From NCBI GenBank assembly GCA_964036665.1, contig OZ038530.1, positions 1,426,001 through 1,490,000 on the forward strand: DNA of 64,000 nucleotides, in the 5' to 3' direction. Position 1 is the first letter of the stretch. Each line of letters opens with the position of its first letter. Shown here one piece after another: positions 20,481 to 61,220 of this stretch. The notes beneath the pieces were generated by a model. The model saw only the letters and a program-made list of their open reading frames with translations, had not been told where the DNA came from and did no database searches. Source of the DNA: Gordius sp. MW1. Taxonomy: Eukaryota; Nematomorpha; Gordioida; Gordea; Gordiidae. The position numbers were made by a program, and so were the translations under genes.

Positions 20481-20523
20481 CTGAATTAAGAAAAACTCTT
20501 GTTTTATCCCTTACTTTAGTGCA

Positions 20524-26190: not shown

Positions 26191-29100
26191 TCCGTGACCA
26201 TCCGTGACCGTCTGTGACCATCCGTGACCGTCCGTGACCATACGTGACCGTCCGTGACCATACGTGACCGTCCGTGACCATCCGTGATAGTCCGTGACCA
26301 TCCGTGACCATCCGTGACCGTCCGTGACCGTCCGTGACCATCCGTGACCGTCCGCGACCGTCCGTGACAGCCCGTGACCATTCATGACCATCCGTGACCG
26401 TCAGTGTCCGTCCGTCCTTCCAACGTAAATAATGCTTAGATAGATATCAAATTAAAGCCAAATTATTTATTTTTTAATTGCTATGCAATTTATGTGTTTC
26501 GCTTTTTGTTGTCCGTCTGTGACCGTCCGTGACCATCCGTGACCGTCCGTGTTCGTCCGTTGTCCGTCCGTCCTTCCAACGTAAAAAATGCTTAGATAGA
26601 TGTCAAATTAAAGCCAAATTATTTATTTTTTAAATGCTATGCAATTTATGGGCTCGCTTTTTATTGTCCGTCCGTTGTCCGTCCGTGACCATCCGTGACC
26701 GTCCGTTTCCGTCCGTGTTCATCCGTGTCCGTCCGTTGTCCGTCCATCCTTCCAACGTAAATAATGCTTAGATATTAAATTAAAGCCAAAATATTTATTT
26801 TTTAATTGCTATGCAATTTATGGGCTCGCTTTTTGTTGTCCGTCCGTTGTGCGTCCGTGTCCGTCAGTTGTCCGTCCGTGTCCGTCCGTTGTCCGTCCGT
26901 GACCGTCCGTGTCCGTCCGTCCTGCCCAACGTAAATAATGCTTAGATAGATATCAAATTAAAGCCAAATTATTTATTTTTTAATTGCTATGCAATTTTTG
27001 GGTCTCGCTTTTTGTTGTCCGTCCGTTGTCCGTCCGTGACCATCCGTGACCATCCGTGACCGTCCGTGACCGTCCGTGACCGTCCGTGACCATCCGTGAC
27101 CGTCCGTGATAGTTCGTGACTATCCGTGATAGTCCGTGACCATCCGTGATAGTCCGTGACCATCCGTGACCATCCGTGACCATCCGTGACCATCCGTGAC
27201 CATCCGTGACCATCCGTGACCGTCCGTAACCGTCCGTGTCCGTCCGTCCTTCCAACGTAAATAATGCTTAGATAGCAAATTAAAGCCAAATTATTTATTT
27301 TTTAATTGCTATGCAATTTATGGGCTCGCTTTTTGTTGTCCGTCCGTGAACATCCGTGACCATCCGTGACCGTCCGTGACCATCCGTGACCGTCCGTGAC
27401 CATCCGTGACCATCCGTGACCGTCCGTGACCATCCGTGACCCTCCGTGACCGTCCGTGACCATCCGTGACCGTCCGTGGCCATACGTGACCGTCCGTGAC
27501 AATCCGTGACCATCCGTGACCGTACGTCCTTCCAACGTAAATAATGCTTAGATAGCAAATTAAAGCCAAATTATTTATTTTTTAATTGCTATGCAATTTA
27601 TGGGCTCGCTTTTTGTTGTCCGTCCGTTGTGCGTCCGTGTCCGTCAGTTGTCCGTCCGTGTCCGTCCGTGACCGTCCGTGTCTGTCCGTCCTGCCCAACG
27701 TAAATAATGCTTAGATAGATATCAAATTAAAGCCAAATTATTTATTTTTTAATTGCTATGCAATTTTTGGGTCTCGCTTTTTGTTGTCCGTCCGTTGTCC
27801 GTCCGTGACCATCCGTGACCATCCGTGATAGTCCGTGACCATCCGTGATAGTCCGTGACCATCCGTGACCATCCGTGACCATCCGTGACCATCCGTGACT
27901 ATCCGTGACCGTCCGTGACCAGCCGTGACCGTCCATGACCATCCGTGACCGTCCGTGACCGTCCGTGACCATCCGTGACCGTCCGTGACTATCCGTGACG
28001 GTCCGTCCTTCCAACGTAAATAATGCTTAGATAGCAAATTAAAGCCAAATTATTTATTTTTTAATTGCTATGCAATTTATGGGCTCGCTTTTTGTTGTCC
28101 GTCCGTTGTCCGTCCGTGACCATCCGTGACCATCCGTGACCGTCTGTGACCATCCGTGACCGTCTGTGACCATCCGTGACCGTCCGTGACCATACGTGAC
28201 CGTCCGTGACCATCCGTGACTATCCGTGACCGTCCGTGACCATCCGTGATAGTCCGTGACCATCCGTGACCATCCGTGACCGTCCGTGACCGTCCGTGAC
28301 CATCCGTGACCGTCCGCGACCGTCCGTGACAGCCCGTGACCATTCATGACCATCCGTGACCGTCAGTGTCCGTCCGTCCTTCCAACGTAAATAATGCTTA
28401 GATAGATATCAAATTAAAGCCAAATTATTTATTTTTTAATTGCTATGCAATTTATGTGTTTCGCTTTTTGTTGTCCGTCTGTGACCGTCCGTGACCATCC
28501 GTGACCGTCCGTGTTCGTCCGTTGTCCGTCCGTCCTTCCAACGTAAAAAATGCTTAGATAGATGTCAAATTAAAGCCAAATTATTTATTTTTTAAATGCT
28601 ATGCAATTTATGGGCTCGCTTTTTATTGTCCGTCCGTTGTCCGTCCGTGACCATCCGTGACCGTCCGTTTCCGTCCGTGTTCATCCGTGTCCGTCCGTTG
28701 TCCGTCCATCCTTCCAACGTAAATAATGCTTAGATATTAAATTAAAGCCAAAATATTTATTTTTTAATTGCTATGCAATTTATGGGCTCGCTTTTTGTTG
28801 TCCGTCCGTTGTGCGTCCGTGTCCGTCAGTTGTCCGTCCGTGTCCGTCCGTTGTCCGTCCGTGACCGTCCGTGTCCGTCCGTCCTGCCCAACGTAAATAA
28901 TGCTTAGATAGATATCAAATTAAAGCCAAATTATTTATTTTTTAATTGCTATGCAATTTTTGGGTCTTGCTTTTTGTTGTCCGTCCGTTGTCCGTCCGTG
29001 ACCATCCGTGACCATCCGTGACCGTCCGTGACCATCCGTGACCGTCCGTGACCGTCCGTGACCATCCGTGACCGTCCGTGATAGTCCGTGACCATCCGTG

Positions 29101-31200
29101 ATAGTCCGTGACCATCCGTGATAGTCCGTGACCATCCGTGACCATCCGTGACCATCCGTGACCGTCCGTGACCATCCGTGACCATCTGTGACCGTCCGTA
29201 ACCGTCCGTGTCCGTCCGTCCTTCCAACGTAAATAATGCTTAGATAGCAAATTAAAGCCAAATTATTTATTTTTTAATTGCTATGCAATTTATGTGTCTC
29301 GCTTTTTATTGTCCGTCCGTTGTCCGTCCGTGACCATCCGTGACCGTCCGTGTCCGTCCGTGTCCATCCGTGTCCATCCGTGACCGTCCGTTGTCCGTCT
29401 GTCCTTCCAACGTAAATAATGCTTAGATATCAAATTAAAGCCAAATTATTTATTTTTTAATTGCTATGCAATTTATGGGCTCGCTTTTTGTTGTCCGTCC
29501 GTTGTGCGTCCGTGTCCGTCAGTTGTCCGTCCATGTCCGTCCGATGTCCGTCCGTGACCGTCCGTGTCCGTCCGTGTCCGTCCGATGTCCGTCCGTGACC
29601 GTCCGTGTCCGTCCGTCCTGCCCAACGTAAATAATGCTTAGATAGATATCAAATTAAAGCCAAATTATTTTTTTTTTAAATTTTTGGGTCTCGCTTTTTG
29701 TTGTCCGTCTGTGACCGTCCGTGACCATCCGCGACCGTCCGTTGTCCGTCCATCCTTCCAACGTGAATAATGATTAGATATCAAATTAAAGTCAAATTAT
29801 TTATTTTTTAATTGCTATGCAATTTATGTGTTTCGCTTTTTGTTGTCCGTCTGTGACCGTCCGTGACCGTCCGTGACCATCCGTGACCGTCCGTGTTCGT
29901 CCGTTGTCCGTCCGTCCTTCCAACGTAAAAAATGCTTAGATAGATATCAAATTAAAGCCAAATTATTTATTTTTTAAATGCTATGCAATTTATGGGCTCG
30001 CTTTTTATTGTCCGTCCGTTGTCCGTCCGTGACCATCCGTGACCGTCCGTGTCCATCCGTGTCCGTCCGTGTCCGTCCGTGTCCATCCGTGACCGTCCGT
30101 TGTCCGTTCGTCCTTCCAACGTAAATAATGCTTAGATAGCAAATTAAAGCCAAATTATTTATTTTTTAATTGCTATGCAATTTTTGGGTCTCGCATTTTG
30201 TTGTCCGTCCGTTGTCCGTCCGTGTCCGTCCGTGACCGTCCGTGTCCGTTCGTGTCCGTCCGTGTCCGTTCGTTGTCCGTCCATCCTTCCAACGTAAATA
30301 ATGCTTAGATATTAAATTAAATCCAAATTATTTATTTTTTAATTGCTATGCAATTTATGGGCTCGCTTTTTGTTGTCCGTCCGTTGTGCGTCCGTGTCCG
30401 TCAGTTGTCCGTCCGTGTCCGTCGGTTGTCCGTCCGTGACCGTCCGTGACCATCCACGACCATCCGTGACCGTCCGTGACCGTCCGTGACCGTCCGTGAC
30501 CATCCGTGACCGTCCGTGACCATCCGTGACCATCCGTGACCGTCCGTGACCGTCCGTGTCCGTCCGTGTCCGTCCGTCCTTCCAACGTAAATAATGCTTA
30601 GATCGCAAATTAAAGCCAAATTATTTATTTTTTAATTGCTATGCAATTTATGGGCTCGCTTTTTGTTGTCCGTCCGTGACCATCCGTGACCATCCGTGAC
30701 CATCCGTGACCATCCGTGACAGTCCGTGACCATCCGTGACTATCCGTGACCGTCCGTGACCATCCGTGACCATCCGTGACCGTCCGTGACCATCCGTAAC
30801 CGTCCGTGTCCGTCCGTTGTCCGTCCGTGACCATACGTGACCGTCCGTGACCATCTGTGATAGTTCGTGACCAGCCGTGACCATCCGTGACCGTCCGTGA
30901 CCGTCCGTGACCATCCGTGACCGTCCGTCCTTCCAACGTAAATAATGCTTAGATAGCAAATTAAAGCCAAATTATTTATTTTTTAATTGCTATGCAATTT
31001 ATGGGCTCGCTTTTTGTTGTCCGTCCGTTGTCCGTCCGTGACCATCCGTGACCGTCCGTGACCATCCGTGACCGTCCGTGACCATCCGTGACCATCCGTG
31101 ACCGTCCGTGACCATACGTGACCGTCCGTGACCATCCTTGACTATCCGTGACCGTCCGTGACCATCCGTGATAGTCCGTGACCATCCGTGACCATCCGTG
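26191..31200 (+). repeat. Composite satellite arm A (10-bp arrays plus AT-rich modules)
   Basis: Short arrays of 10-bp units (GTGACCATCC, GTGACCGTCC, less often GTGATAGTCC, GTGTCCGTCC) alternate with about 21 copies of a roughly 90-bp AT-rich module. The module runs from CTTCCAACGTAAATAATGCT through AAATTAAAGCCAAATTATTT to GGGCTCGCTTTTTGTTGTCC. A block of about 1.96 kb is duplicated in tandem, as shown by matching variant strings ending near 26391 and 28353. All open frames here are translations of the repeat with a 30-bp period. No gene is seen. Confidence 0.95.
27529..27620 (+). repeat. Representative AT-rich module of the composite satellite
   Basis: About 92 bp, typical of roughly 115 copies in the window. 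It contains the palindrome AATTGCTATGCAATT. Variants differ in a central GATAGATATCAAA / GATAGCAAA / GATATCAAA indel and in the exit motif TGGGCTCGC / TGTGTCTCGC / TTGGGTCTCGC / TGTGTTTCGC. Variant types recur with particular flanking 10-bp strings, so module plus array is copied as one unit. I recognise no tRNA, promoter or transposon end in it. Confidence 0.85.
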
Positions 31201-31526
31201 ACTAAAGTTATTAAAAGCATGGCTGGACCAAAAGTCATGAAAGGGTGAGCGATTATCAGGCTCATGCAAAGATGTATTAAAATATGACCGCTTGTAATAT
31301 TCGCTGAGAGCCGTAAGGCCAAAGTAATAGGCCGGATTAACGTAGAAACAAGCTCAATGATAAACAAAAAAGGAACTAGCACTGTAGGCGATCCCGATGG
31401 GATAAATATGTACAGTTTTAAACCTGTTAAAAAGTATACTGCTGAAGGGGTAAACAATGCTAAAGATAGTGAAAGAATGATAGCTGTTCTAGATGTTAAT
31501 GTGTATGTATAGTTAAACCCAGGTAA
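31201..31526 (-). pseudogene. atp6: atp6 fragment (NUMT copy 1)
   Basis: About 108 codons of ATP synthase subunit a, the membrane subunit that forms the proton path of mitochondrial ATP synthase. The frame runs LPGFNYTYTLTS at its start, then through PSGSPTVLVPFLFIIE, and the diagnostic LIRPITLALRLSANITSGH, which contains the conserved arginine of the proton channel. One frame is open throughout under the invertebrate code. Both ends are missing: upstream it meets palindromic sequence at about 31526 and downstream it runs into satellite at 31200. A complete gene has about 220 codons, so roughly half is present. Confidence 0.88.
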
Positions 31527-31868
31527 TTATATGACAAAATAGCTGAGAAAATAGATATAGAAACTGAAACACCCACTCTTCCTACCATAAAGGTCTTAAT
31601 AGTATCAGAGCTCATACTATTAAGCCCTTTTTGGTAGGAAGAGTGGGTGTTTCAGTTTCTATATCTATTTTCTCAGCTACAGCCATTTTGTCATATAATT
31701 AGTATCCAACCTGATATGACAAAATAGCTGAGAAAATAGATATAGAAACTGAAACACCCGTAAGGATCAAAAGAGGAGAATAAATTTATTATCATAAATT
31801 AAAATGTGATAAGACATATAGAAACTGAAACACCCACTCTTCCTACCATAAAGGGCTTAATAGTATCA
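31527..31868. repeat. Nested palindromes between atp8 and atp6 fragments, copy 1
   Basis: The segment 31525-31698 is a large inverted repeat with arms of about 85 bp meeting near GTATCAGAGCTCATACT at 31603-31619. A third and a fourth partial copy of the same segment follow in direct orientation (31718-31760 and about 31818-31868). A second, near-perfect palindrome, TATCAGAGGCCCTCTGATA, spans 31864-31882 and joins it to atp8. On the minus strand the repeated segment is open under the mitochondrial code and includes MVGSVGVSVSMSIFSA, which I do not recognise. The pattern suggests template switching or fold-back repair at a break. Confidence 0.8.
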
Positions 31869-31869
31869 G

Positions 31870-31965
31870 AGGCCCTCTGATAGACAGAACAGATGATGTA
31901 AAAATTAATAATAAAATTAGAAATGTGACAACTGATGCTATTATAGGAAAGGTTTGTGGGATGAT
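31870..31965 (-). pseudogene. atp8: atp8 fragment (NUMT copy 1)
   Basis: About 31 codons of the small ATP synthase subunit 8. The frame begins at an ATC next to the end of trnD and reads IIPQTFPMMASVVTFLILLL, i.e. the usual 'MPQ..P' start followed by a single hydrophobic membrane segment. It stops being atp8 at the palindrome near 31870. Complete atp8 usually has 50-55 codons and overlaps atp6, so the basic C-terminus and the start of atp6 were lost. Identification rests on the 'PQ' start, hydrophobicity and position after trnK-trnD, since atp8 sequence is poorly conserved. Confidence 0.72.
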
Positions 31966-32016
31966 GGGGATCCTAATACCTAGGTTTATCACCTTGACAA
32001 AGTGATATAACCCCCA
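31964..32016 (-). tRNA. trnD: trnD(GTC)-like, lacking a D-arm, NUMT copy 1
   Basis: Folds with a 7-bp acceptor stem (TGGGGGT with ATCCCCA, one G-T pair), anticodon stem TCACT/GGTGA around the loop TTGTCAA (anticodon GTC, aspartate), and a CCTA/TAGG T-stem. Only TATA separates the acceptor stem from the anticodon stem, so there is no D-arm. The length is 53 nt. It lies between trnK and atp8, its place in arthropods. Either the source mitochondrion has a D-armless tRNA-Asp or the arm was deleted. Both NUMT copies show the same form. Confidence 0.68.
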
Positions 32017-32019
32017 AAG

Positions 32020-32085
32020 GCAGGTAAAGTTACTAATAACTTCTTCAACTTAAGAGGTTGATGCTTCCTAAAAGCTTTTTAACTG
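32020..32085 (-). tRNA. trnK: trnK(CTT), NUMT copy 1
   Basis: A cloverleaf of 66 nt. The acceptor stem CAGTTAA/TTACCTG has one mismatch. The D-stem is GCTT/AAGC. The anticodon stem TCAAC/GTTGA holds the loop CTCTTAA with anticodon CTT (lysine), the usual arthropod form. The T-stem is AGTTA/TAACT. It begins two bases after the cox2 stop and is followed directly by the trnD-like sequence. In the nucleus it would not be expected to be expressed as a mitochondrial tRNA. Confidence 0.85.
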
Positions 32086-32087
32086 TA

Positions 32088-32535
32088 TTACTTTGTTGTT
32101 ACTCAGTTCAAAAAATTACTAGTAGATAAAGCTTCTAAACAAATAGGCATAAAAGTCTTCTTGTTGTGTTATATACGAATCGAAGTTTAAATTCTCAAAA
32201 TCAGAGTACTCATAGTTTCAGTATCACTGAGCTTCTATTACTTTTACAGTAAAATCAGGTCAGTGAGCATCTTCGTTAGAGTATAAAATTTTTACTGTAG
32301 GCAAAGCTATAGCTATTAAAATTACTATGGGTAAAACCGTTCAAATAAATTCTGTTAGATTTATATGTGCAGGTTTTAGAGTGTAGCTTTTTGGTGTGAT
32401 AATAGTAAAAAATATAAATATAACCATTATTGTAATAGCAATGATGTAAGCTATAGCAAACTCGTGTAAGAGTAGAAGGTATTCTGATGAAGAGGATGCT
32501 ATATCATTTAAAAAAACCAAATGTCAGGGGTTCAT
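32088..32535 (-). pseudogene. cox2: cox2 with internal deletion (NUMT copy 1)
   Basis: Cytochrome c oxidase subunit II takes electrons from cytochrome c through its CuA centre. The frame starts MNPWHLVFLNDMASSSSEYL and covers the two membrane helices and the start of the outer domain (EAQWYWNYEYSDFENL, DSYMTQQED), about 127 codons. At about 32150-32156 it jumps, out of frame, to the last 20 codons (MPICLEALSTSNFLNW...) and a TAA stop. Some 75 residues are missing. They include the Cys/His/Met region that holds most CuA ligands. The true gene is about 225-230 codons. The order cox1-cox2-trnK is intact around it, with 18 bp between the cox1 stop and the cox2 ATG. Confidence 0.92.
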
Positions 32536-32553
32536 TACAATCAGGTTGGATTG

Positions 32554-34082
<1,529 letters not shown>

Positions 34083-34084
34083 AT

Positions 34085-34164
34085 TTTTAACATTTTTATT
34101 GTCGCGGAGACATTCACAGCCAGATTTGGCTGTGAATGTCTCCGCGACAATAAAAATGTTAAAA
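34085..34164. repeat. Perfect 38-bp hairpin just upstream of cox1, copy 1
   Basis: Left arm 34085-34122 and right arm 34127-34164 are exact reverse complements (TTTTAACATTTTTATTGTCG... ...CGACAATAAAAATGTTAAAA) with a 4-base loop GATT. It begins 3 bp from the cox1 start codon. In copy 2 the loop is one base and the arms are 36 bp. Perfect arms in a decayed region suggest a young fold-back event. A short AAGGGG/CCCCTT hairpin follows at 34164-34184. Confidence 0.92.
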
Positions 34165-34264
34165 GGGGCAAGCCCCTTTAAGGGGGTATGGGTGGGTGGG
34201 AGTATTAGTTAGTATTAGTTAGTATTCTGTATTAAGATTCTAATATGTGTATTTACACCTTCAG

Positions 34265-34380
34265 ATTTGGTCCTTTTCGAATTTGTACTGAGCCAAGCAT
34301 CTTTATTAGTAAGAATATCGTTTTTTGCGCTTCTTGAGCGAAGGATGCTTGGCTGAGTACAAATTCGTAAAGGACCAAAT
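34265..34380. repeat. Inverted repeat with LSU-rRNA-like arms, copy 1
   Basis: Arms of 37 bp at 34265-34301 and 34344-34380 match at 35 positions and enclose a 42-bp loop. Each arm, in one orientation, contains GAGTAC...CGAAAAGGACC or close to it, which resembles the sarcin-ricin loop near the 3' end of mitochondrial large-subunit rRNA (AGTACGAAAGGACC). The rRNA origin is a weak inference from about 15 bases. The inverted repeat itself is clear. It sits between the cox1 hairpin and the right satellite arm. Confidence 0.7.
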
Positions 34381-34390
34381 AAAGTACTGA

Positions 34391-37300
34391 TGGTCACGGA
34401 CGGTCACGGATGGTCACGGACGGTCACGGATGGTCACGGATGATCACGGACGGACAACGGACGGACAACAAAAAGCGAGCCCATAAATTGCATAGCAATT
34501 AAAAAATAAATAATTTGGCTTTAATTTGCTATCTAAGCATTATTTAAGTTGGAAGAACGGACGGTCACGGATGGTCACGGATCGTCACGGACGGACATCG
34601 GACGGACAACAAAAAGCGAGCCCATAAATTGCATAGCAATTAAAAAATAAATAATTTGGCTTTAATTTGATATCTATCTAAGCATTATTTACGTTAGAAG
34701 GACGGACGGACACGGACGGTCACGTATGGTCACGGACGGTCACGGACGGTGACGGATAGTAACGAATGATTACGGACGGTCACGGACGGTCACGGATGGT
34801 CACGGATGGTCACGGACGGTCACGGATGGTCACGGATGGTCACAGATGGTCACGGACGGTCACGGATGGTCACGGACGGACACGGACAGACACGGACGGT
34901 CACGGATGGTCACGGACGGTCACGGCTGGTCACGGATGGTCACGGATGGTCACGGATGGTCACGGATGGTCACGGATAGTCACGGATGGTCACGGACGGT
35001 AACGGACGGTCACGGAACGACACGGACGGACACGGACGGACAGGGACGGACACAAGCGAGCCCATATATTGCAGAGCAATTAAAAAATAAATCATTTTGG
35101 CTCTAATTTGATATGTATCTAAGCATTATTTACGTTGGGCAGGACGGACGGACACGGACGGACAACGTACGGACAACAAAAAGCGAGCCCATAAATTGCA
35201 TAGCAATTAAAAAATAAATAATTTGGCTTTAATTTGCTATCTAAGCATTATTTAGGTTGGAAGGACGGACGGTAACGGATCGTCACTGATCGTCACGGAC
35301 GGACAACGGACGGACAACAAAAAGCGAGCCCATAAATTGCATAGCAATTAAAAAATAAATAATTTGGCTTTAATTTGCTATCTAAGCATTATTTACGTTG
35401 GAAGGACGGACGGTCACGGATGGTCACGGATTGTCACGGACGGTCACGTATGGTCACGGATGGTCACGGACGGTCACGGATGGTCACGGACGGTCACGGA
35501 TAGTCACGGACGGTCACGGATGGTCACGGACGGTCACGGACGGTCACGGATGGTCACGGACGGTCACGGATGGTCACGGACGGTCACAGATGGCACGGAC
35601 GGTCACGGATGGTCACGGATGGTCACGGACGGACAACAAAAAGCGAGCCCATAAATTGCATAGCAATTAAAAAATAAATAATTCGGCTTTAATTTGCTAT
35701 CTAAGCATTATTTACGTTGGAAGGACGGACGAACACGGACGGACACGGATGGTCACGGACGGTCACGGATGGTCACGGACGGTCACAGATGGTCACGGAC
35801 GGTCACAGATGGACACGGACGGTCACAGACTATCACGGATAGTCACGGACGGTCACGGATGGTCACGGACGGTCACGGATGGTCACGGATGGTCACGGAC
35901 GGTCACGGATGGTCACGGATGGTCACGGACGGTCACGGACGGACACGGACGGTCACGGACGGACACGGACGGACACGGACGGACACGGACGGACAATGGA
36001 CGGACAACAAAAAGCGAGACCCAAAAATTGCATAGCAATTAAAAATTAAATAATGTGGCTTTAATTTGCTATCTAAGCATTATTTACGTTGGAAGGACGG
36101 ACGGACAACGGCCGGTCACGGATGGACACGGACGGACACGGACGGTCACGGAAGGTTACGGATGGTCACGGACGGACAACGGACGGACAACAAAAAGCGA
36201 GCCCATAAATTGCATAGCTATTAAAAAAATAAATAATTTGGCTTTAATTTGATATCTATCTAAGCATTATTTACGTTGGAAGGACGGACGGACAACGGAC
36301 GGACACGGACCGTCACGGATGGTCACGGATCGTCACGGATGGTCACGGATGGTCACGGACGGTCACGAACGGACACGGACGGACACAGACGGTCACGGAC
36401 GGACACGGACGGACACGGACGGTCACGGACGGACACGGACGGACAACGGACGGACAACAAAAAGCGAGACCCAAAAAATAAATAATTTGGCTTTAATTTG
36501 CTATCTAAGCATTATTTACGTTGGAAGGACAGACGGACAACGGACGGTCACGGATGGACACGGATGGACACGGACGGACACGGACGGTCACGGATGGTCA
36601 CGGACGGACAACGGACGGACAATAAAAAGCGAGACACATAAATTGCATAGCAATTAAAAAATAAATAATTTGGCTTTAATTTGATATCTATCTAAGCATT
36701 ATTTACGTTGAAAGGACGGACGGAAAACGGACGGTCACGGATGTTTACGGATAGTCACGGATGGTCACGGACGGTCACGGATGGTCACGGACGGTCACGG
36801 ACGGTCACGGATGGTCACGGATGGTCACGGATGGTCACGGATGGTCACGGACGGTCACGGATGGTCACGGACGGTCACGGACGGACACGGACAGACACGG
36901 ACGGTCACGGACGGTCACGGAAGGACACGGACGGTCACGGACGGACACGGACGGACAATGGACGGACAACAAAAAGCGAGACCCAAAAATTGCATAGCAA
37001 TTAAAAAATAAATAATGTGGCTTTAATTTGCTATCTAAGCATTATTTACGTTGGAAGGACGGACGGACAACGGCCGGTCACGGATGGACACGGACGGACA
37101 CGGACGGTCACGGAAGGTTACGGATGGTCACGGACGGACAACGGACGGACAACAAAAAGCGAGCCCATAAATTGCATAGCTATTAAAAAAATAAATAATT
37201 TGGCTTTAATTTGATATCTATCTAAGCATTATTTACGTTGGAAGGACGGACGGACAACGGACGGACACGGACCGTCACGGATGGTCACGGACGGTCACGG

Positions 37301-49900: not shown

Positions 49901-52900
49901 ACCATCCGTGACTATCCGTGACCGTCCGTGACCATCCGTGATAGTCCGTGACCATCCGTGACCATCCGTGACCGTCCGTGACCGTCCGTGACCATCCGTG
50001 ACCGTCCGCGACCGTCCGTGACAGCCCGTGACCATTCATGACCATCCGTGACCGTCAGTGTCCGTCCGTCCTTCCAACGTAAATAATGCTTAGATAGATA
50101 TCAAATTAAAGCCAAATTATTTATTTTTTAATTGCTATGCAATTTATGTGTTTCGCTTTTTGTTGTCCGTCTGTGACCGTCCGTGACCATCCGTGACCGT
50201 CCGTGTTCGTCCGTTGTCCGTCCGTCCTTCCAACGTAAAAAATGCTTAGATAGATGTCAAATTAAAGCCAAATTATTTATTTTTTAAATGCTATGCAATT
50301 TATGGGCTCGCTTTTTATTGTCCGTCCGTTGTCCGTCCGTGACCATCCGTGACCGTCCGTTTCCGTCCGTGTTCATCCGTGTCCGTCCGTTGTCCGTCCA
50401 TCCTTCCAACGTAAATAATGCTTAGATATTAAATTAAAGCCAAAATATTTATTTTTTAATTGCTATGCAATTTATGGGCTCGCTTTTTGTTGTCCGTCCG
50501 TTGTGCGTCCGTGTCCGTCAGTTGTCCGTCCGTTGTCCGTCCGTGACCGTCCGTGTCCGTCCGTCCTGCCCAACGTAAATAATGCTTAGATAGATATCAA
50601 ATTAAAGCCAAATTATTTATTTTTTAATTGCTATGCAATTTTTGGGTCTCTTTTTGTTGTCCGTCCGTTGTCCGTCCGTGACCATCCGTGACCATCCGTG
50701 ACCGTCCGTGACCGTCCGTGACCGTCCGTGACCATCCGTGACCGTCCGTGATAGTCCGTGACTATCCGTGATAGTCCGTGACCATCCGTGATAGTCCGTG
50801 ACCATCCGTGACCATCCGTGACCATCCGTGACCATCCGTGACCGTCCGTGACCATCCGTGACCATCCGTGACCGTCCGTAACCGTCCGTGTCCGTCCGTC
50901 CTTCCAACGTAAATAATGCTTAGATAGCAAATTAAAGCCAAATTATTTATTTTTTAATTGCTATGCAATTTATGGGCTCGCTTTTTGTTGTCCGTCCGTT
51001 GTGCGTCCGTGTCCGTCAGTTGTCCGTCCGTTGTCCGTCCGTGACCGTCCGTGTCCGTCCGTCCTGCCCAACGTAAATAATGCTTAGATAGATATCAAAT
51101 TAAAGCCAAATTATTTATTTTTTAATTGCTATGCAATTTTTGGGTCTCGCTTTTTGTTGTCCGTCCGTTGTCCGTCCGTGACCATCCGTGACCATCCGTG
51201 ACCGTCCGTGACCATCCGTGACCGTCCGTGACCGTCCGTGACCATCCGTGACCGTCCGTGATAGTCCGTGACCATCCGTGACCATCCGTGACCATCCGTG
51301 ACCATCCGTGACCGTCCGTGACCATCCGTGACCATCCGTGACCGTCCGTAACCGTCCGTGTCCGTCCGTCCGACCAACGTAAATAATGCTTAGATAGCAA
51401 ATTAAAGCCAAATTATTTATTTTTTAATTGCTATGCAATTTATGGGCTCGCTTTTTGTTGTCCGTCCGTGAACATCCGTGACCATCCGTGACCATCCGTG
51501 ACCGTCCGTGATCATCCGTGACCGTCCGTGACCAGCCGTGACCCTCCGTGACCGTCCGTGACCATCCGTGACCGTCCGTGGCCATACGTGACCGTCCGTG
51601 ACAATCCGTGACCATCCGTGACCGTACGTCCTTCCAACGTAAATAATGCTTAGATAGCAAATTAAAGCCAAAATATTTATTTTTTAATTGCTATGCAATT
51701 TATGGGCTCGCTTTTTGTTGTCCGTCCGTTGTGCGTCCGTGTCCGTCAGTTGTCCGTCCGTGTCCGTCCGTGACCGTCCGTGTCTGTCCGTCCTGCCCAA
51801 CGTAAATAATGCTTAGATAGATATCAAATTAAAGCCAAATTATTTATTTTTTAATTGCTATGCAATTTTTGGGTCTCGCTTTTTGTTGTCCGTCCGTTGT
51901 CCGTCCGTGACCATCCGTGACCATCCGTGACCGTCCGTGATTATCCGTGACCGTCCGTGACCGTCCGTGACCATCCGTGACCGTCCGTGATAGTCCGTGA
52001 CCATCCGTGATAGTCCGTGACCATCCGTGATAGTCCGTGACCATCCGTGACCATCCGTGACCATCCGTGACCGTCCGTGACCATCCGTGACCATCCGTGA
52101 CCGTCCGTAACCGTCCGTGTCCGTCCGTCCTTCCAACGTAAATAATCCTTAGATAGCAAATTAAAGCCAAATTATTTATTTTTTAATTGCTATGCAATTT
52201 ATGTGTCTCGCTTTTTATTGTCCGTCCGTTGTCCGTCTGTGACCATCCGTGACCGTCCGTGTCCGTCCGTGTCCATCCGTGTCCATCCGTGACCGTCCGT
52301 TGTCCGTCTGTCCTTCCAACGTAAATAATGCTTAGATATCAAATTAAAGCCAAATTATTTATTTTTTAATTGCTATGCAATTTATGGGCTCGCTTTTTGT
52401 TGTCCGTCCGTTGTGCGTCCGTGTCCGTCAGTTGTCCGTCCATGTCCGTCCGATGTCCGTCCGTGACCGTCCGAGTCCGTCCGTGTCCGTCCGATGTCCG
52501 TCCGTGACCGTCCGTGTCCGTCCGTCCTGCCCAACGTAAATAATGCTTAGATAGATATGAAATTAAAGCCAAATTATTTTTTTTTTAAATTTTTGGGTCT
52601 CGCTTTTTGTTGTCCGTCTGTGACCGTCCGTGACCATCCGCGACCGTCCGTTGTGCGTCCATCCTTCCAACGTGAATAATGATTAGATATCAAATTAAAG
52701 TCAAATTATTTATTTTTTAATTGCTATGCAATTTATGTGTTTCGCTTTTTGTTGTCCGTCTGTGACCGTCCGTGACCGTCCGTGACCATCCGTGACCGTC
52801 CGTGTTCGTCCGTTGTCCGTCCGTCCTTCCAACGTAAAAAATGCTTAGATAGATATCAAATTAAAGCCAAATTATTTATTTTTTAAATGCTATGCAATTT

Positions 52901-53766
52901 ATGGGCTCGCTTTTTATTGTCCGTCCGTTGTCCGTCCGTGACCGTCCGTGTCCATCCGTGTCCGTCCGTGTCCGTCCGTGTCCATCCGTGACCGTCCGTT
53001 GTCCGTTCGTCCTTCCAACGTAAATAATGCTTAGATAGCAAATTAAAGCCAAATTATTTATTTTTTAATTGCTATGCAATTTTTGGGTCTCGCATTTTGT
53101 TGTCCGTCCGTTGTCCCTCCGTGTCCGTCCGTGACCGTCCGTGTCCGTTCGTGTCCGTCCGTGTCCGTTTGTTGTCCGTCCATCCTTCCAACGTAAATAA
53201 TGCTTAGATATTAAATTAAATCCAAATTATTTATTTTTTAATTGCTATGCAATTTATGGGCTCGCTTTTTGTTGTCCGTCCGTGACCATCCGTGACCATC
53301 CGTGACCGTCCGTGACCATCCGTGACAGTCCGTGACCATCCGTGACTATCCGTGACCGTCCGTGACCATCCGTGACCGTCCGTGACCATCCGTAACCGTC
53401 CGTGTCCGTCCGTTGTCCGTCCGTGACCATACGTGACCGTCCGTGACCATCTGTGATAGTTCGTGACCAGCCGTGACCATCCGTGACCGTCCGTGACCGT
53501 CCGTGACCATCCGTGACCGTCCGTCCTTCCAACGTAAATAATGCTTAGATAGCAAATTAAAGCCAAATTATTTATTTTTTAATTGCTATGCAATTTATGG
53601 GCTCGCTTTTTGTTGTCCGTCCGTTGTCCGTCCGTGACCATCCGTGACCGTCCGTGACCATCCGTGACCGTCCGTGACCATACGTGACCGTCCGTGACCA
53701 TCCTTGACTATCCGTGACCGTCCGTGACCATCCGTGATAGTCCGTGACCATCCGTGACCATCCGTG
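46969..53766 (+). repeat. Composite satellite arm A', second copy
   Basis: About 6.8 kb in the same orientation as arm A, with about 29 AT-rich modules. It starts abruptly: at 46969 an opposite-orientation 10-bp array meets a module that lacks its first part (TCTAGATATCAAATTAAAGC). From about 49740 to 53766 the variant order follows arm A (for example 28060-28380 matches 49779-50070), with deletions and insertions of whole units. It ends at the second NUMT with the same junction, TCCGTGACTAAAG, as the first. Confidence 0.93.
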
Positions 53767-54091
53767 ACTAAAGTTATTAAAAGCATGGCTGGACCAAAAG
53801 TCATGAAAGGGTGAGCGATTATCAGGCTCATGCAAAGATGTATTAAAATATGACCGCTTGTAATATTCGCTGAGAGCCGTAAGGCCAAAGTAATAGGCCG
53901 GATTAACGTAGAAACAAGCTCAATGATAAACAAAAAAGGAACTAGCACTGTAGGCGATCCCGATGGGATAAATATGTACAGTTTTAAACCTGTTAAAAAG
54001 TATACTGCTGAAGGGGTAAACAATGCTAAAGAAAGTGAAAGAATGATAGCTGTTCTAGATGTTAATGTGTATGTATAGTTAAACCCAGGTA
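53767..54091 (-). pseudogene. atp6: atp6 fragment (NUMT copy 2)
   Basis: Same stretch of ATP synthase subunit a as in copy 1, with LIRPITLALRLSANITSGH and the conserved arginine, and the same truncations at the satellite and at the palindrome. The two fragments differ by one or two bases (GATAGTG versus GAAAGTG near 54031). No new stop is seen. Confidence 0.88.
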
Positions 54092-54436
54092 ATTATATGA
54101 CAAAATAGCTGAGAAAATAGATATAGAAACTGAAACACCCACTCTTCCTACCATAAAGGGCTTAATAGTATCAGAGCTCTGATACTATTAAGCCCTTTTT
54201 GGTAGGAAGAGTGGGTGTTTCAGTTTCTATATCTATTTTCTCAGCTACAGCTATTTTGTCATATAATTAGTATCCAACCTGATATGACAAAATAGCTGAG
54301 AAAATAGATATAGAAACTGAAACACCCGTAAGGATCAAAAGAGGAGAATAAATTTATTATCATAAATTAAAATGTGATAAGACATATAGAAACTGAAACA
54401 CCCACTCTTCCTACCATAAAGGGCTTAATAGTATCA
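54092..54436. repeat. Nested palindromes between atp8 and atp6 fragments, copy 2
   Basis: Same arrangement as in copy 1 but with a perfect centre: AGTATCAGAGCTCTGATACT at 54167-54186, axis between 54176 and 54177. Arms of about 85 bp extend on both sides with a small ACAG insertion in the right arm. Copy 1 lacks two bases at the centre. Partial direct copies follow at about 54280-54326 and 54385-54436. Confidence 0.8.
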
Positions 54437-54437
54437 G

Positions 54438-54533
54438 AGGCCCTCTGATAGACAGAACAGATGATGTAAAAATTAATAATAAAATTAGAAATGTGACAAC
54501 TGATGCTATTATAGGAAAGGTTTGTGGGATGAT
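54438..54533 (-). pseudogene. atp8: atp8 fragment (NUMT copy 2)
   Basis: Same 31-codon piece of ATP synthase subunit 8 as in copy 1, starting next to trnD with IIPQTFPMM and ending in the same palindromic junction. No difference from copy 1 was noticed. Confidence 0.72.
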
Positions 54534-54584
54534 GGGGATCCTAATACCTAGGTTTATCACCTTGACAAAGTGATATAACCCCCA
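54532..54584 (-). tRNA. trnD: trnD(GTC)-like, lacking a D-arm, NUMT copy 2
   Basis: Same 53-nt form as in copy 1: intact acceptor, anticodon (GTC) and T-stems, with only four bases where the D-arm should be. Confidence 0.66.
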
Positions 54585-54587
54585 AAG

Positions 54588-54653
54588 GCAGGTAAAGTTA
54601 CTAATAACTTCTTCAACTTAAGAGGTTGATGCTTCCTAAAAGCTTTTTAACTG
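54588..54653 (-). tRNA. trnK: trnK(CTT), NUMT copy 2
   Basis: Same 66-nt cloverleaf as copy 1 with anticodon CTT in a CTCTTAA loop, placed between the cox2 stop and the trnD-like sequence. Confidence 0.85.
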
Positions 54654-54655
54654 TA

Positions 54656-55103
54656 TTACTTTGTTGTTACTCAGTTCAAAAAATTACTAGTAGATAAAGC
54701 TTCTAAACAAATAGGCATAAAAGTCTTCTTGTTGTGTTATATACGAATCGAAGTTTAAATTCTCAAAATCAGAGTACTCATAGTTTCAGTATCACTGAGC
54801 TTCTATTACTTTTACAGTAAAATCAGGTCAGTGAGCATCTTCGTTAGAGTATAAAATTTTTACTGTAGGCAAAGCTATAGCTATTAAAATTACTATGGGT
54901 AAAACCGTTCAAATAAATTCTGTTAGATTTATATGTGCAGGTTTTAGAGTGTAGCTTTTTGGTGTGATAATAGTAAAAAATATAAATATAACCATTATTG
55001 TAATAGCAATGATGTAAGCTATAGCAAACTCGTGTAAGAGTAGAAGGTATTCTGATGAAGAGGTAGCTATATCATTTAAAAAAACCAAATGTCAGGGGTT
55101 CAT
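54656..55103 (-). pseudogene. cox2: cox2 with internal deletion (NUMT copy 2)
   Basis: Carries the same out-of-frame deletion of the CuA-region codons as copy 1, at the same place (after DSYMTQQED). One dinucleotide difference near 55065 (GGTAGC here, GGATGC in copy 1) changes residues near the N-terminus. The shared deletion shows descent from one damaged ancestor. Confidence 0.92.
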
Positions 55104-55399
55104 TACAATCAGGTTGGATTGTTAAATAGATAAAGAGGTGATTTCGTTGTAAGTATGTGTACTAGGAGGAAAACCTAAAATAAACTCAGGGTGAGTTCTA
55201 GCAGGCATAAATCTCATAGTCTTGCGTTTTATAGAAAAAATATCTCATAAAACTCAAATAAATAGAATAAGAGATAGAGTAGATAAGGTAGACCCTAAAG
55301 AAGAAATAGTATTTCAAAAAGTAAATCTATCAGGATAGTCTGTATACCGACGAGGTATTCCGGCTAAGCCTAAAAAATGGTGAGGAAAGAATGTCAGAT

Positions 55400-55404
55400 T
55401 CACC
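55400..55404 (+). other. Left target-site duplication of the LTR insert
   Basis: TCACC here and TCACC at 59670-59674, immediately inside the cox1 flanks. Five-base duplications are usual for LTR retrotransposons. A 4-bp CACC reading is possible if the LTR ends in T. Confidence 0.78.
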
Positions 55405-55891
55405 TATCGTGTACCCATACACGAAGATATTATCCGGAGATACGAGTATACAAAGACAAAGCCAGATGTTTACTTTGTTTGTAAAAGGTATAGACGCCGC
55501 CGCCACACGTCTCTCCTTTTCTAATTAAGTTTAGTACGCATATTAAATCCCCCCCCCGACGCGCTGATATTATTTATTTTATCCCCATATATGATTGTGT
55601 ATCACTGATAATATGCCTGAGTCATTATGATAGTACGGGGATATCTTTTAGATATAAATTAATTTATTCTTGGTTGTATTTGTGTAATAGAAATAAAGTT
55701 TATACACGAGAGAGATTTTAGTTTAATAAAACGACATTTTACCGGGGAGAAGGTTGGTTTTCCCCGGCCCCCTATCATCCAGTAAAATCTCCCCAATATA
55801 TCTCTAAAAACTCCCCAATATATCCTAAATGACCTATCCCCCTTTTCAACAAGTTTTTAATCATATCACATAAAAATGCCTGGATATGAAA
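55405..55891 (+). repeat. LTR 1
   Basis: Begins TATCGTGTACCCATACACG and ends GGATATGAAA, without canonical TG...CA ends. It contains a C-run before GACGCGCTG, a tandem-like CTCCCCAATATATC pair and an AATAAA signal in AATAGAAATAAAGTTT (about 55689-55704). The purine tract expected before it is absent because it is the outer left LTR. Confidence 0.85.
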
Positions 55892-55926
55892 TTGGCGCCG
55901 GAAAGGTGGAATCGAACCACTTCGCC
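55892..55926 (+). other. Primer-binding site extended into a tRNA-like T-arm
   Basis: Starts TTGGCGCCGG, complementary to a tRNA 3' end with CCA. Complementarity to a tRNA appears to continue beyond the usual 18 bases. Read in reverse complement the segment ends in GCGCCA, preceded by the full B-box GGTTCGATTCC inside a GTGG/CCAC stem. Next comes an inverted LTR piece. In the other two internal regions only TGGCGCCGGATT and a decayed AATCGAACC remain. Confidence 0.6.
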
Positions 55927-56384
55927 AACCAAGAATAAATTAATTAATTTCTAAAAGATATCCCCGTACTATCATAATGACTCAGGCATATTATCAGTGA
56001 TACACAATCATATATGGGGATAAAATAAATAATATCAGCGCGTCGGGGGGGGGATTTAATATGCGTACTAAACTTAATTAGAAAAGGAGAGACGTGTGGC
56101 GGCGGCGTCTATACCTTTTACAAACAAAGTAAACATCTGGCTTTGTCTTTGTATACTCGTATCTCCGGATAATATCTTCGTGTATGGGTACACGATATCT
56201 TTCCCTTTACCAAACTTGTATGCTCCCTCTGGGTGATGGGGGGGGGGTGTGAAAAATTTTCCGGTCTTAACATTAAAAATATCAAACTAACTTCTATGAA
56301 TTTACGCAGTATTTTCTTTTGAAGAATCCATGGCCAACGGGATTTACCTCATTTATGGCTTGTGGGACTTTTCATGTTCTTTTT
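55927..56384 (-). mobile_element. Inverted fragment: 5' half of an LTR plus internal 3' end
   Basis: Reverse-complement copy of the first 270 bp or so of an LTR (55927-56197, ending CACGATA), then the reversed purine tract TCTTTCCCTTT and the last 175 bp of an internal region up to TTCATGTTCTTTTT. It meets LTR 2 head to head at 56385. The LTR piece carries the AATTAATTAATT variant seen in LTRs 2 and 3, not the ATATAAATTAATT variant of LTR 1. Confidence 0.85.
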
Positions 56385-56919
56385 TATCGTGTACCCATAC
56401 ACGAAGATATTATCCGGAGATACGAGTATACAAAGACAAAGCCAGATGTTTACTTTGTTTGTAAAAGGTATAGACGCCGCCGCCACACGTCTCTCCTTTT
56501 CTAATTAAGTTTAGTACGCATATTAAATCCCCCCCCCGACGCGCTGATATTATTTATTTTATCCCCATATATGATTGTGTATCACTGATAATATGCCTGA
56601 GTCATTATGATAGTACGGGGATATCTTTTAGAAATTAATTAATTTATTCTTGGTTGTATTTGTGTAATAGAAATAAAGTTTATACACGAGAGAGATTTTA
56701 GTTTAATAATACGACATTTTACCGGGGAGAAGGTTGGTTTTCCCCGGCCCCCTATCATCCAGTAAAATCTCCCCAATATATCTCTAAAGACTCCCCAATA
56801 TATCCTAAATGACCTATCCCCCTTTTCATTAATTTAATCCTACCACGAATATTCTTCCCAAGTTATTCTGGGTCCAACAAGTTTTTAATCATATCACATA
56901 AAGTTGATTGGATATGAAA
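56385..56919 (+). repeat. LTR 2 (with a 48-bp extra segment)
   Basis: Full LTR of 535 bp. Compared with the others it has an additional segment near 56829-56876 (ATTAATTTAATCCTACCACG...TTCTGGGTCC) before CAACAAGTTTTTAATC. The other LTRs may have lost it, since CA flanks it. The end GGATATGAAA is followed by TTGGCGCCGG. Confidence 0.85.
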
Positions 56920-57629
56920 TTGGCGCCGGATTAAAAAAAGTAATCGAACCATCCCCATCATAAATTAGACCAAAAGAGATGTACCCACGCCAAGAAAAAC
57001 AATTTCTTTAAAAAAAAATGAAATACCCCCGGAAAACAATTCGGTAAAAAACAAATTACCCCTACTATTCGGAATTGAAAAATCATTCTAGACAAATTAC
57101 CCCTACTATTCTGAATTGAGAAATCATTCTAAGAAATTACTCCTGAAATTCCCCTTCATTCAAACCTTCTTTTTAGTATTATTCTCATTTTTCAGGATAT
57201 AACAGAAGTTCAAAATTCACACCCTCGGATATTCCTATTCAGCATATATAAAATCGCATCCTGTACAAATCTAAATTTCATCTGGTTAAAGAAATCAGGA
57301 ATTATTCAACCAGGAAATAATTAATACGATGCATCATAGGACAAGAGTTTCCGATAACAGATGGCAACACGCACTGCAAGAAAATGATTAGGATTCATAG
57401 AGCAGGGATTAGTTTACCACAATTTAAAGAGCGGGGAAAAAGAACATGAAAAGTCCCACAAGCCATAAATGAGGTAAATCCCGTTGGCCATGGATTCTTC
57501 AAAAGAAAATACTGCGTAAATTCATTGAAGTTAGTTTGATATTTTTAATGTTAAGACCGGAAAATTTTTCACACCCCCCCCCCCCCCCCATCACCCAGAG
57601 GGAGCATACAAGTTTGGTAAAGGGAAAGA
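56920..57629 (+). mobile_element. Internal region 1 of the LTR element, non-coding
   Basis: 710 bp from TTGGCGCCGG to the purine tract AAAGGGAAAGA at 57619-57629. It contains a direct repeat (ACAAATTACCCCTACTATTC twice near 57050-57115) and a run of 16 C near 57574-57589. Open frames are under about 60 codons and show no retroelement motif. Short length and lack of coding capacity fit a TRIM-like element. Confidence 0.82.
57619..57629 (+). promoter_or_regulatory. Polypurine tract before LTR 3
   Basis: AAAGGGAAAGA lies directly before the LTR start TATCGTG, the expected site of plus-strand priming. The same tract precedes LTR 5 at 59173-59183. Confidence 0.75.
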
Positions 57630-58115
57630 TATCGTGTACCCATACACGAAGATATTATCCGGAGATACGAGTATACAAAGACAAAGCCAGATGTTTACTT
57701 TGTTTGTAAAAGGTATAGACGCCGCCGCCACACGTCTCTCCTTTTCTAATTAAGTTTAGTACGCATATTAAATCCCCCCCCGACGCGCTGATATTATTTA
57801 TTTTATCCCCATATATGATTGTGTATCACTGATAATATGCCTGAGTCATTATGATAGTACGGGGATATCTTTTAGAAATTAATTAATTTATTCTTGGTTG
57901 TATTTGTGTAATAGAAATAAAGTTTATACACGAGAGAGATTTTAGTTTAATAATACGACATTTTACCGGGGAGAAGGTTGGTTTTCCCCGGCCCCCTATC
58001 ATCCAGTAAAATCTCCCCAATATATCTCTAAAAACTCCCCAATATATCCTAAATGACCTATCCCCCTTTTCAACAAGTTTTTAATCATATCACATAAAAA
58101 TGCCTGGATATGAAA
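57630..58115 (+). repeat. LTR 3
   Basis: Full LTR of 486 bp, TATCGTG to GATATGAAA. Instead of a primer-binding site it is followed by TTCGCCGCCGCCACACG, the middle of another LTR, so two LTRs are joined in tandem. Confidence 0.85.
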
Positions 58116-58515
58116 TTCGCCGCCGCCACACGTCTCTCCTTTTCTAATTAAGTTTAGTACGCATATTAAATCCCCCCCCCCGACGCGCTGATATTATTTA
58201 TTTTATCCCCATATATGATTGTGTATCACTGATAATATGCCTGAGTCATTATGATAGTACGGGGATATCTTTTAGATATAAATTAATTTATTCTTGGTTG
58301 TATTTGTGTAATAGAAATAAAGTTTATACACGAGAGAGATTTTAGTTTAATAATACGACATTTTACCGGGGAGAAGGTTGGTTTTCCCCGGCCCCCTATC
58401 ATCCAGTAAAATCTCCCCAATATATCTCTAAAAACTCCCCAATATATCCTAAATGACCTATCCCCCTTTTCAACAAGTTTTTAATCATATCACATAAAAA
58501 TGCTGGGATATGAAA
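58116..58515 (+). repeat. 5'-truncated LTR 4
   Basis: Lacks about the first 90 bp and begins within the CGCCGCCGCCACACG motif, then continues to GATATGAAA. The junction with LTR 3 shares only one or two bases, so it looks like a recombination or template-switch join. Confidence 0.82.
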
Positions 58516-59183
58516 TTGGCGCCGGATTAAAAAAGTAATCGAACCATCCCCATCATAAATTAGACCAAAAGAGATGTACCCACGCCAAGAAAAACAATTT
58601 CTTTAAAAAAAAATGAAATACCCCCGGAAAACAATTCGGTAAAAAACAAATTACCCCTACTATTCGGAATTGAAAAATCATTCTAGACAAATTACCCCTA
58701 CTATTCTGAATTGAGAAATCATTCTAAGAAATTACTCCTGAAATTCCCCTTCATTCAAACCTTAGTTCAAAATTCACACCCTCGGATATTCCTATTCAGC
58801 ATATATAAAATCGCATCCTGTACAAATCTAAATTTCATCTGGTTAAAGAAATCAGGAATTATTCAACCAGGAAATAATTAATACGATGCATCATAGGACA
58901 AGAGTATCCGATAACCGATGGCAACACGCACTGCAAGAAAATGTTTAGGATTCATAGAGCAGGGATTAGTTTACCACAATTTAAAGAGCGGGGAAAAAGA
59001 ACATGAAAATTCCCACAAGCCATAAATGAGGTAAATCCCGTTGGCCATGGATTCTTCAAAAGAAAATACTGCGTAAATTCATTGAAGTTAGTTTGATATT
59101 TTTAATGTTAAGACCGGAAAATTTTTCACACCCCCCCCCCCCCATCACCCAGAGGGAGCATACAAGTTTGGTAAAGGGAAAGA
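58516..59183 (+). mobile_element. Internal region 2 of the LTR element, non-coding
   Basis: 668 bp, very similar to internal region 1 but lacking about 38 bp (the CTTTTTAGTATTATTCTC...CAGGATATAACAG stretch). It ends with the purine tract at 59173-59183. No coding frame is recognisable. Confidence 0.82.
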
Positions 59184-59669
59184 TATCGTGTACCCATACA
59201 CGAAGATATTATCCGGAGATACGAGTATACAAAGACAAAGCCAGATGTTTACTTTGTTTGTAAAAGGTATAGACGCCGCCGCCACACGTCTCTCCTTTTC
59301 TAATTAAGTTTAGTACGCATATTAAATCCCCCCCCGACGCGCTGATATTATTTATTTTATCCCCATATATGATTGTGTATCACTGATAATATGCCTGAGT
59401 CATTATGATAGTACGGGGATATCTTTTAGATATAAATTAATTTATTCTTGGTTGTATTTGTGTAATAGAAATAAAGTTTATACACGAGAGAGATTTTAGT
59501 TTAATAATACGACATTTTACCGGGGAGAAGGTTGGTTTTCCCCGGCCCCCTATCATCCAGTAAAATCTCCCCAATATATCTCTAAAAACTCCCCAATATA
59601 TCCTAAATGACCTATCCCCCTTTTCAACAAGTTTTTAATCATATCACATAAAAATGCCTGGATATGAAA
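59184..59669 (+). repeat. LTR 5, outer right LTR
   Basis: Full LTR of 486 bp preceded by the purine tract and followed by the target duplication TCACC and cox1. It carries the ATATAAATTAATT variant also found in LTR 1, so the outer LTRs resemble each other more than the inner ones at this site. Confidence 0.85.
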
Positions 59670-59967
59670 TCACCCCAATAAAAGTTAGTAGAAACTGAGG
59701 AAGACTGATTTTTATTGATATATTTAGTCCACTAATTAGAGGCATGTAATGAGTTACCCCTGCAAAAATGGAAAAGACAGCTCCTATTGAAAGAACGTAG
59801 TGAAAATGTGCTACAACATAATAAGTGTCGTGAAGTGTAATGTCTAGGGAAGATGAGCTTAAAATAATACCTGTTAGTCCTCCTACTGTAAATAGAAATA
59901 AGAACCCTATCGCTCATATTTGAGAGATAGAAAAATTATTAGGAGAACCTGATATAGTGGCTAGTCA

Positions 59968-60138
<171 letters not shown>

Positions 60139-60922
60139 TTATTTGCATTATCTGCTAGAACGTGAGAAATTAAACCGAAACCGGGTAAGATTAAGATGTA
60201 TACTTCAGGATGTCCAAAGAACCAAAACAAATGTTGAAATAAAACAGGATCGCCTCCTCCGATAGGATCGAAAAAAGAAGTATTAATATTACGATCCAAG
60301 ATTAGTATTGTTAGAGCACCTGCTAATACAGGAAGTCTTAAAAGTAATAGGAAAGCAGTAATTAATGAAGACCATAAAAAAAGCGATAGTTTTTCTATAG
60401 GGAATCCTGCGGGTCGTAAAGTGATGATTGTAGTAATAAAGTTTATTGATCCTAAAAGAGAGCTAATCCCGGCAATATGAAGAGATAGGATTGCTAAATC
60501 AGTAGAAGGTGAGGGATGGCCAATTAAACCAGATAAGGGTGGATAGATTGTCCATCCTGTAGCACACCCTGACTCTGTTAGGCTACTAGTTAGTAGAAGA
60601 ATTAATCTAAGGGGTAATAATCAAAAAGATAGATTGTTTATACGAGGAAAGGCTATGTCCGGGGATGACAGCATAGACGGGATTAGTCAATTTCCAAACC
60701 CTCCTACCAGAATAAGTATAATAGCAAAAAAAATTATTACTAGGGCATGGGCAGTAATAATTATATTATAGGTGGACCCTCTTTTAATAAGTGAACCTAA
60801 GTGGGAGAGCTCGATTCGGATAATTACTCTTAAAGCAGTTCCTAAAAAAGCTGCTCAAAATCCGAATAGAAAGTATAGAATGCCAATATCCCTGTGTGAA
60901 GTTGTTGTTAATCATCGCATAT

Positions 60923-60995
60923 TTTTAACATTTTTATTGTCGCGGAGACATTCACAGCGGCTGTGAATGTCTCCGCGACAATAAAAATGTTAAAA
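60923..60995. repeat. Perfect 36-bp hairpin just upstream of cox1, copy 2
   Basis: Arms 60923-60958 and 60960-60995 are exact reverse complements with a single G between them. Copy 1 has a 38-bp stem and a 4-base loop; this copy has lost about 7 bp at the tip. Confidence 0.92.
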
Positions 60996-61095
60996 GGGGC
61001 AAGCCCCTTTAAGGGGGTATGGGTGGGTGGGAGTATTAGTTAGTATTAGTTAGTATTCTGTATTAAGATTCTAATATGTGTATTTACACCTTCAG

Positions 61096-61211
61096 ATTTG
61101 GTCCTTTTCGAATTTGTACTGAGCCAAGCATCTTTATTAGTAAGAATATCGTTTTTTGCGCTTCTTGAGCGAAGGATGCTTGGCTGAGTACAAATTCGTA
61201 AAGGACCAAAT
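61096..61211. repeat. Inverted repeat with LSU-rRNA-like arms, copy 2
   Basis: Arms at 61096-61132 and 61175-61211, matching the structure at 34265-34380 with the same two arm mismatches. It is followed by AAAGTACTGATGGTCACGG, the same exit into satellite. Confidence 0.7.
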
Positions 61212-61220
61212 AAAGTACTG

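Follow-up and report, generated by a model that had tools for sequence, protein, structure and literature searches.

How does a piece of mitochondrial DNA (mtDNA) come to lie twice, each time between satellite arms of opposite orientation, in one nuclear contig? The question is raised by a satellite-rich 64-kb stretch of Gordius sp. MW1 (assembly GCA_964036665.1, contig OZ038530.1, positions 1,426,001 to 1,490,000 of the forward strand), here called the window, which contains no N anywhere. A first-pass annotation, made from the letters alone, had described two consecutive units with the order satellite(+), mitochondrial block, satellite(−), and this order was confirmed by the strand of an embedded 76-bp element, by base skew, and by BLAST. 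Judged from the sequence, the answer is probably a single nuclear mitochondrial pseudogene (NUMT) at a satellite orientation switch, which decayed and was then, recently, duplicated in tandem together with its flanks. The two units are made up of the following features (positions within the window):

26191–31202, plus strand: left satellite arm of unit 1, 10-bp repeats with the embedded 76-bp element
31203–34388, minus strand: mitochondrial pseudogene core 1, from Pfam, ARAGORN -mt, and PDB cox1 matches and from frames under genetic code 5
34389–46967, minus strand: right satellite arm of unit 1, the same satellite in reversed orientation
48391–53768, plus strand: left satellite arm of unit 2, with block homology to the left arm of unit 1 (e.g., 49835–50999 and 51629–53735)
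53769–61219, minus strand: mitochondrial pseudogene core 2, split by an insert (55405–59670)
61220–64000, minus strand: right satellite arm of unit 2, extending past the end of the window

From ∼26191 on, the window consists of a 10-bp satellite (CCGTCCGTGA/TCCGTGACCA in the left arm of unit 1), related to the 11-bp array on its left and carrying the A+T-rich 76-bp element. The window has 117 matches to this element, and their strand gives the orientation of the satellite. According to element strand and base skew, the orientation is plus at 26191–31202, minus at 34389–46967, plus at 46968–53768, and minus at 61220–64000; the mitochondrial blocks sit at both plus-to-minus switches. The element spacings, ∼91 to 482 bp, are irregular yet recurring in 26191–31202, 34389–53768, and 61220–64000, and could serve as barcodes to trace rearrangements of the array.

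The mitochondrial origin and nuclear pseudogene status previously assigned to the blocks are supported by the Pfam, ARAGORN -mt, and PDB matches, by the code 5 frames, and by the lesions that both copies share. Read on the minus strand, the core comprises two palindromic segments, cox1, the 5′ part of cox2, trnK, trnD, a possible atp8, and a rearranged atp6; thus, cox1, cox2, trnK, trnD, and atp6 lie on a single strand in mitochondrial order and code. In core 1, Pfam returned COX1 twice (1.8e-70 and 1.3e-59), COX2_TM (2.8e-12), COX2 (6.8e-9), and ATP-synt_A (7.6e-16), and PDB matches back the identity of the first cox1 part. What we take, by resemblance, to be atp8 gave no Pfam match and is unconfirmed. 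With ARAGORN -mt, core 1 and the first part of core 2 each gave trnK and trnD, and the second part of core 2 gave no tRNA; the default mode found no tRNA in the window. The order cox1–cox2–trnK–trnD–atp8–atp6 is the arthropod mitochondrial arrangement, and chelicerates or myriapods, rather than insects, are the better fit for a block with no trnL between cox1 and cox2. A comparison of the C-terminal part of cox1 with viral contigs gave nine loci at 44–62% identity, of which no use was made.

The genes are broken. Code 5 leaves cox1 open over 266 and 248 residues, with TGA (Trp) and AGR (Ser) codons inside, but in two frames separated by a frameshift near 33290. The cox2 frame stops past position 34 in Pfam's periplasmic profile, which has 120 positions, and the 3′ part of the gene is missing. 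Part of the atp6 region is duplicated in inverted orientation; in core 2, the result is a near-perfect palindrome (54105–54248) with arms of 72 bp when up to two mismatches are allowed, and in core 1 (31524–31701) a 2-bp indel and substitutions close to it have changed the center of the palindrome. A further palindromic segment of core 1 lies at 34085–34164. With satellite on both sides and the function of cox1 and cox2 lost, classification of the core as a NUMT is supported. Both cores carry a palindromic segment of ∼115 bp at their right edge (34265–34380 and 61096–61211), in which no mitochondrial gene was recognized; a mitochondrial hairpin and a small inverted-repeat element are possible identities. 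By eye, the 6-base TAAAGT is present at both core edges; target duplication or microhomology are possible explanations, and it was not counted as evidence.

When core 1 was compared with the window by BLAST, core 2 was returned at 99.4–99.5% identity in two pieces (53766–55403 and 59670–61226), and no third core was found within the 64 kb, including the 26 kb left of unit 1. In a global alignment of the two cores, 8 of 3173 aligned columns are mismatched; there are two indels, of 2 bp and 7 bp, as well as single-base gaps at the ends, which were chosen by us. Such likeness (99.7% over 3.2 kb) does not arise by chance. The cores had been placed 22.6 kb apart, or 26.8 kb when the insert is counted, and the same satellite junctions had been seen on both sides; these statements hold. 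The spacing is 22,566 bp between left edges and 26,831 bp between right edges, the difference being due to the 4.27-kb insert in core 2. The 120 bases centered on each core–satellite junction are identical between the copies at 120 of 120 positions on either side, and the strings ACTAAAGTTATTAAAAGCATGG (left junction) and AAATAAAGTACTGATGGTCACGG (right junction) each occur exactly twice. Because the cores share nearly all bases, the lesions predate the copying: there was one insertion, which was later duplicated. Thus, the two cores have a single nuclear origin, decayed before they were copied, and were duplicated together with their flanks. Had mtDNA inserted twice, independently, into the same satellite, both events would have had to produce the same breakpoints, the same internal rearrangements, and homologous flanks. 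Repeated insertion into repeats is possible in principle, but no positive evidence speaks for it here; two independent insertions were rejected on the basis of the identical junctions and lesions, and we regard them as vanishingly improbable.

The favored history, one NUMT later duplicated with its flanks, could have unfolded as follows. A fragment of mtDNA would have been captured once by the nuclear genome where the 10-bp/76-bp satellite changes orientation, likely during repair of a double-strand break by end joining, with the mtDNA as filler between two opposed satellite ends; mtDNA capture at breaks by end joining is documented for primates in PMC2567098. The fragment would then have decayed by the cox1 frameshift, the loss of the cox2 3′ part, and a fold-back duplication in atp6. 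A tandem duplication of ∼10 kb or more, spanning satellite(+), core, and satellite(−), would have followed recently, probably via recombination between satellite repeats. A non-coding element with long terminal repeats (LTRs) would subsequently have entered copy 2, and unequal exchange inside the arrays would have reshuffled the arms of both copies. What we infer in this account is that a break was repaired at the switch, how recombination took place, when the LTR element inserted, and that the duplication is real in the chromosome. No function is indicated for the satellite–mitochondrial block.

How far do the satellite arms bear out this history? Many homologous blocks of the two units are 95–100% identical. 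Across the right core edge, 34160–34759 and 60991–61590 are identical at 600 of 600 positions, and the right arm of unit 2 is identical to that of unit 1 for ∼370 bp beside the core. Beyond this, it consists of blocks homologous first to 37.1–38.3 kb and then to 34.8–36.2 kb, that is, in changed order. In the left arms, 26191–27347 and 49835–50999 differ by 1 mismatch in 1145 gap-free columns and 28709–30797 and 51629–53735 by 36 in 2056; in the right arms, 34811–36227 and 62544–64000 differ by 19 in 1417 and 37100–38319 and 61388–62615 by 24 in 1206. Arm lengths and internal block order differ between the units, which are not fully collinear. The left arm of unit 1 also has a 1.96-kb tandem duplication of its own (26329–26928 equals 28291–28890 at 100%).

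Several of these observations weigh against one simple duplication. The pooled arm blocks, four blocks chosen by hand with the two core-edge blocks left out, diverge more than the cores (80/5824, or 1.37%, versus 8/3173, or 0.25%; Fisher p = 2.7e-8), and the two core-edge blocks diverge even more than the pooled ones (34391–34946 versus 61222–61777, 11 mismatches in 555; 30523–31203 versus 53128–53769, 12 in 641). Such a gap between arms and cores is not expected from one duplication with uniform rates; it may stem from conversion by other satellite copies, from paralogous alignment, or from homogenization of the cores. Moreover, the outer ends of the duplicated segment are unlike between the units, and single 400-bp pieces match in inverted orientation at up to 96.0%. 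The low substitution level of the cores (0.25%), the one-sided LTR insert, and the length differences of the satellite also form the pattern expected of heterozygous alleles, a matter considered below.

The description of the arms as "inverted satellite arms" is correct with respect to orientation, but the arms are not mirror copies of each other. Among the best eight matches of each comparison, inverted matches between opposite arms reach 83–94%, are scattered, and lie out of register; the outward spacings of the 76-bp elements from the core are unlike between left and right arms. For these reasons, a mirror-arm palindrome, as expected from sister fusion, is not supported.

The place where the two units meet is instructive as to whether they belong to an array. 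Two further features are needed here:

1 to ∼26190, interrupted: 11-bp TTGTCCGTCCG array, adjoining unit 1 on the left
46968–48390, plus strand: satellite turn, a single occurrence in the window and mostly like inverted right arm

The turn begins within a truncated 76-bp element, at element base 16; its right end (48390) is approximate, the boundary having been set post hoc after the arms had been compared. When the satellite was cut into 400-bp pieces (n = 130), the best match had the same orientation for 113 and the opposite orientation for 17. Within 46968–48367, five of the six pieces were best matched by satellite of opposite orientation, and the first 1.4 kb past the turn are nearer to inverted right-arm than to left-arm satellite. 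A unit–unit junction that recurs with equivalent neighbors was not found: within the window, the 46967/46968 turn is present a single time, and the left neighbor is the 11-bp TTGTCCGTCCG array for unit 1 and minus-strand satellite for unit 2. With two copies, a single unit–unit junction, and a different left neighbor of unit 1, the structure seen in the window is therefore that of a duplication and not of an array. Of the earlier proposal that organellar DNA has become a building block of a nuclear higher-order repeat, copying of the mitochondrial block with its satellite flanks thus stands; a macrosatellite does not follow from two copies.

A true macrosatellite, or higher-order repeat, that has a mitochondrial core and of which the unit would be one copy among many would be compatible with two equally oriented copies at a spacing of 22.6 kb and with conserved core–satellite junctions, with cores closer to each other than the pooled arm blocks, as homogenization would give, and with a right arm of unit 2 that leaves the window, so that more copies could lie to the right. 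However, the 64 kb hold no third core, the unit–unit junction is unrepeated, and the 26 kb left of unit 1 are mostly another, coreless array; we consider this reading improbable. A bolder version, in which satellite(+), core, and satellite(−) make up a composite repeat that is actively amplifying and numerous across the genome, for example at a centromere or on a sex or B chromosome, and in which the mtDNA is kept homogeneous within the unit, seems slightly more doubtful still. If it were true, the about fivefold lower divergence of the cores relative to the pooled arm blocks would reflect ongoing homogenization.

The two units could also be a false duplication, namely, two alleles of one locus set in tandem by the assembler. 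In addition to the allele-like pattern mentioned above, the 22.6-kb spacing exceeds the length of typical HiFi reads, and the junction linking the units, 46967/46968, is seen only once. Against such a join, the window is free of N, and hence the join would lie within a contig; furthermore, the left flanks differ (11-bp array versus inverted right-arm-type satellite), and the alleles, too, would need to differ at that place. An allelic join is, in our judgment, unlikely but to be taken seriously, and a duplication present in the chromosome is preferred.

The insert in core 2, earlier called a retrotransposon, is indeed of the LTR type; it has no long reading frames, however, and is internally repeated:

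55405–59670, no strand assigned: LTR-retrotransposon-like insert with terminal repeats, target duplication, and primer-binding-like motif

Its LTRs (488 and 487 bp) align with 486 matches, 1 mismatch, and 1 gap, and it is flanked by a 4-bp target duplication, CACC, at 55401–55404 and 59671–59674. Directly after the 5′ LTR, at 55893, lies TGGCGCCGG, which we take to be a primer-binding site. This combination of terminal repeats in direct orientation, target duplication, and putative primer-binding site is that of an LTR retrotransposon; no frame of the insert exceeds 90 aa, a reverse transcriptase coding region is lacking, and two pieces (57473–57706 and 57133–57321) gave no Pfam match up to E = 1. 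Extra internal copies of the LTR, direct and inverted, are present. At 55926–56384, part of the LTR and adjoining sequence recur in inverted orientation, and 55926–56197 is 100% complementary to 56385–56656. The insert has the look of a composite made up of copies that were nested or arose by template switching. Because core 1 lacks the insert, the insertion was probably later than the duplication.

Interruptions of the 11-bp array comprise a 1.4-kb element, present twice, and some A+T-rich sequence. For the 11-bp unit, a literature search yielded a single paper, on malaria, which was judged unrelated. The copies (19458–20857 and 22677–24110) are 3.2 kb apart and differ by 9 mismatches in 1397 aligned bases. 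Copy 2 has inverted ends (CAGGGTTTCTTTCAG and CTGAAAGAAACCCTG), copy 1 lacks the right end, and the element looks like a DNA transposon; of two short frames compared with Pfam, one gave only two matches, both below their cut-offs, and the other none. Rfam at gathering thresholds found no match in the whole window, and a 32-base stretch of the A+T-rich satellite element had no match among viral contigs.

Duplication of NUMTs after insertion and organelle DNA in satellite-rich regions have already been published. In the domestic cat, a numt is tandemly amplified (Lopez et al, 1994, 1996, as cited in PMC7142097 and PMC8662614); as here, mtDNA moved to the nucleus and was then multiplied in tandem, but according to these citing passages the mtDNA itself is the repeat, whereas the block described here is mostly satellite with an mtDNA core, present twice in the window. 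The 641-kb numt on Arabidopsis chromosome 2 has, as a passage of PMC9071559 puts it, a putative 135-kb tandem duplication that postdates insertion. The logic is the same, in that shared variants reveal nuclear duplication after insertion and divergence; that numt is far larger and near-identical to its mitochondrial genome, and the duplication described lies within the numt rather than comprising numt and satellite arms. Organelle DNA is likewise found in or beside satellite arrays in Allium centromeres (PMC7644871) and on plant B chromosomes (PMC6210368), for which local amplification after few insertions has been proposed (PMC6210368). These are plant cases, and the passages concerned describe no sequence-level unit with opposed satellite arms; an animal B chromosome with mitochondrial insertions had not been reported as of PMC6210368, by the passage concerned. 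Of seven human mega-NUMTs, four lie in regions with repeats or segmental duplications (passage in PMC7142097). They resemble the present case as rearranged multi-copy mtDNA in nuclear DNA, but are concatenated mtDNA and not satellite–mtDNA composites. A printed precedent for a NUMT–satellite composite unit was not found among the titles and abstract openings listed, or in the passages cited, from the open-licence literature.

Among these known relatives, the placement at a satellite orientation switch is unusual. A mitochondrial insertion copied together with its satellite flanks can be used to date the duplication as well as satellite turnover. In this species, cox1 barcodes may pick up nuclear copies. 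With a high copy number, an animal satellite repeat would include organelle DNA as a structural component, a situation for which only looser parallels, from plants, were found in the passages cited above.

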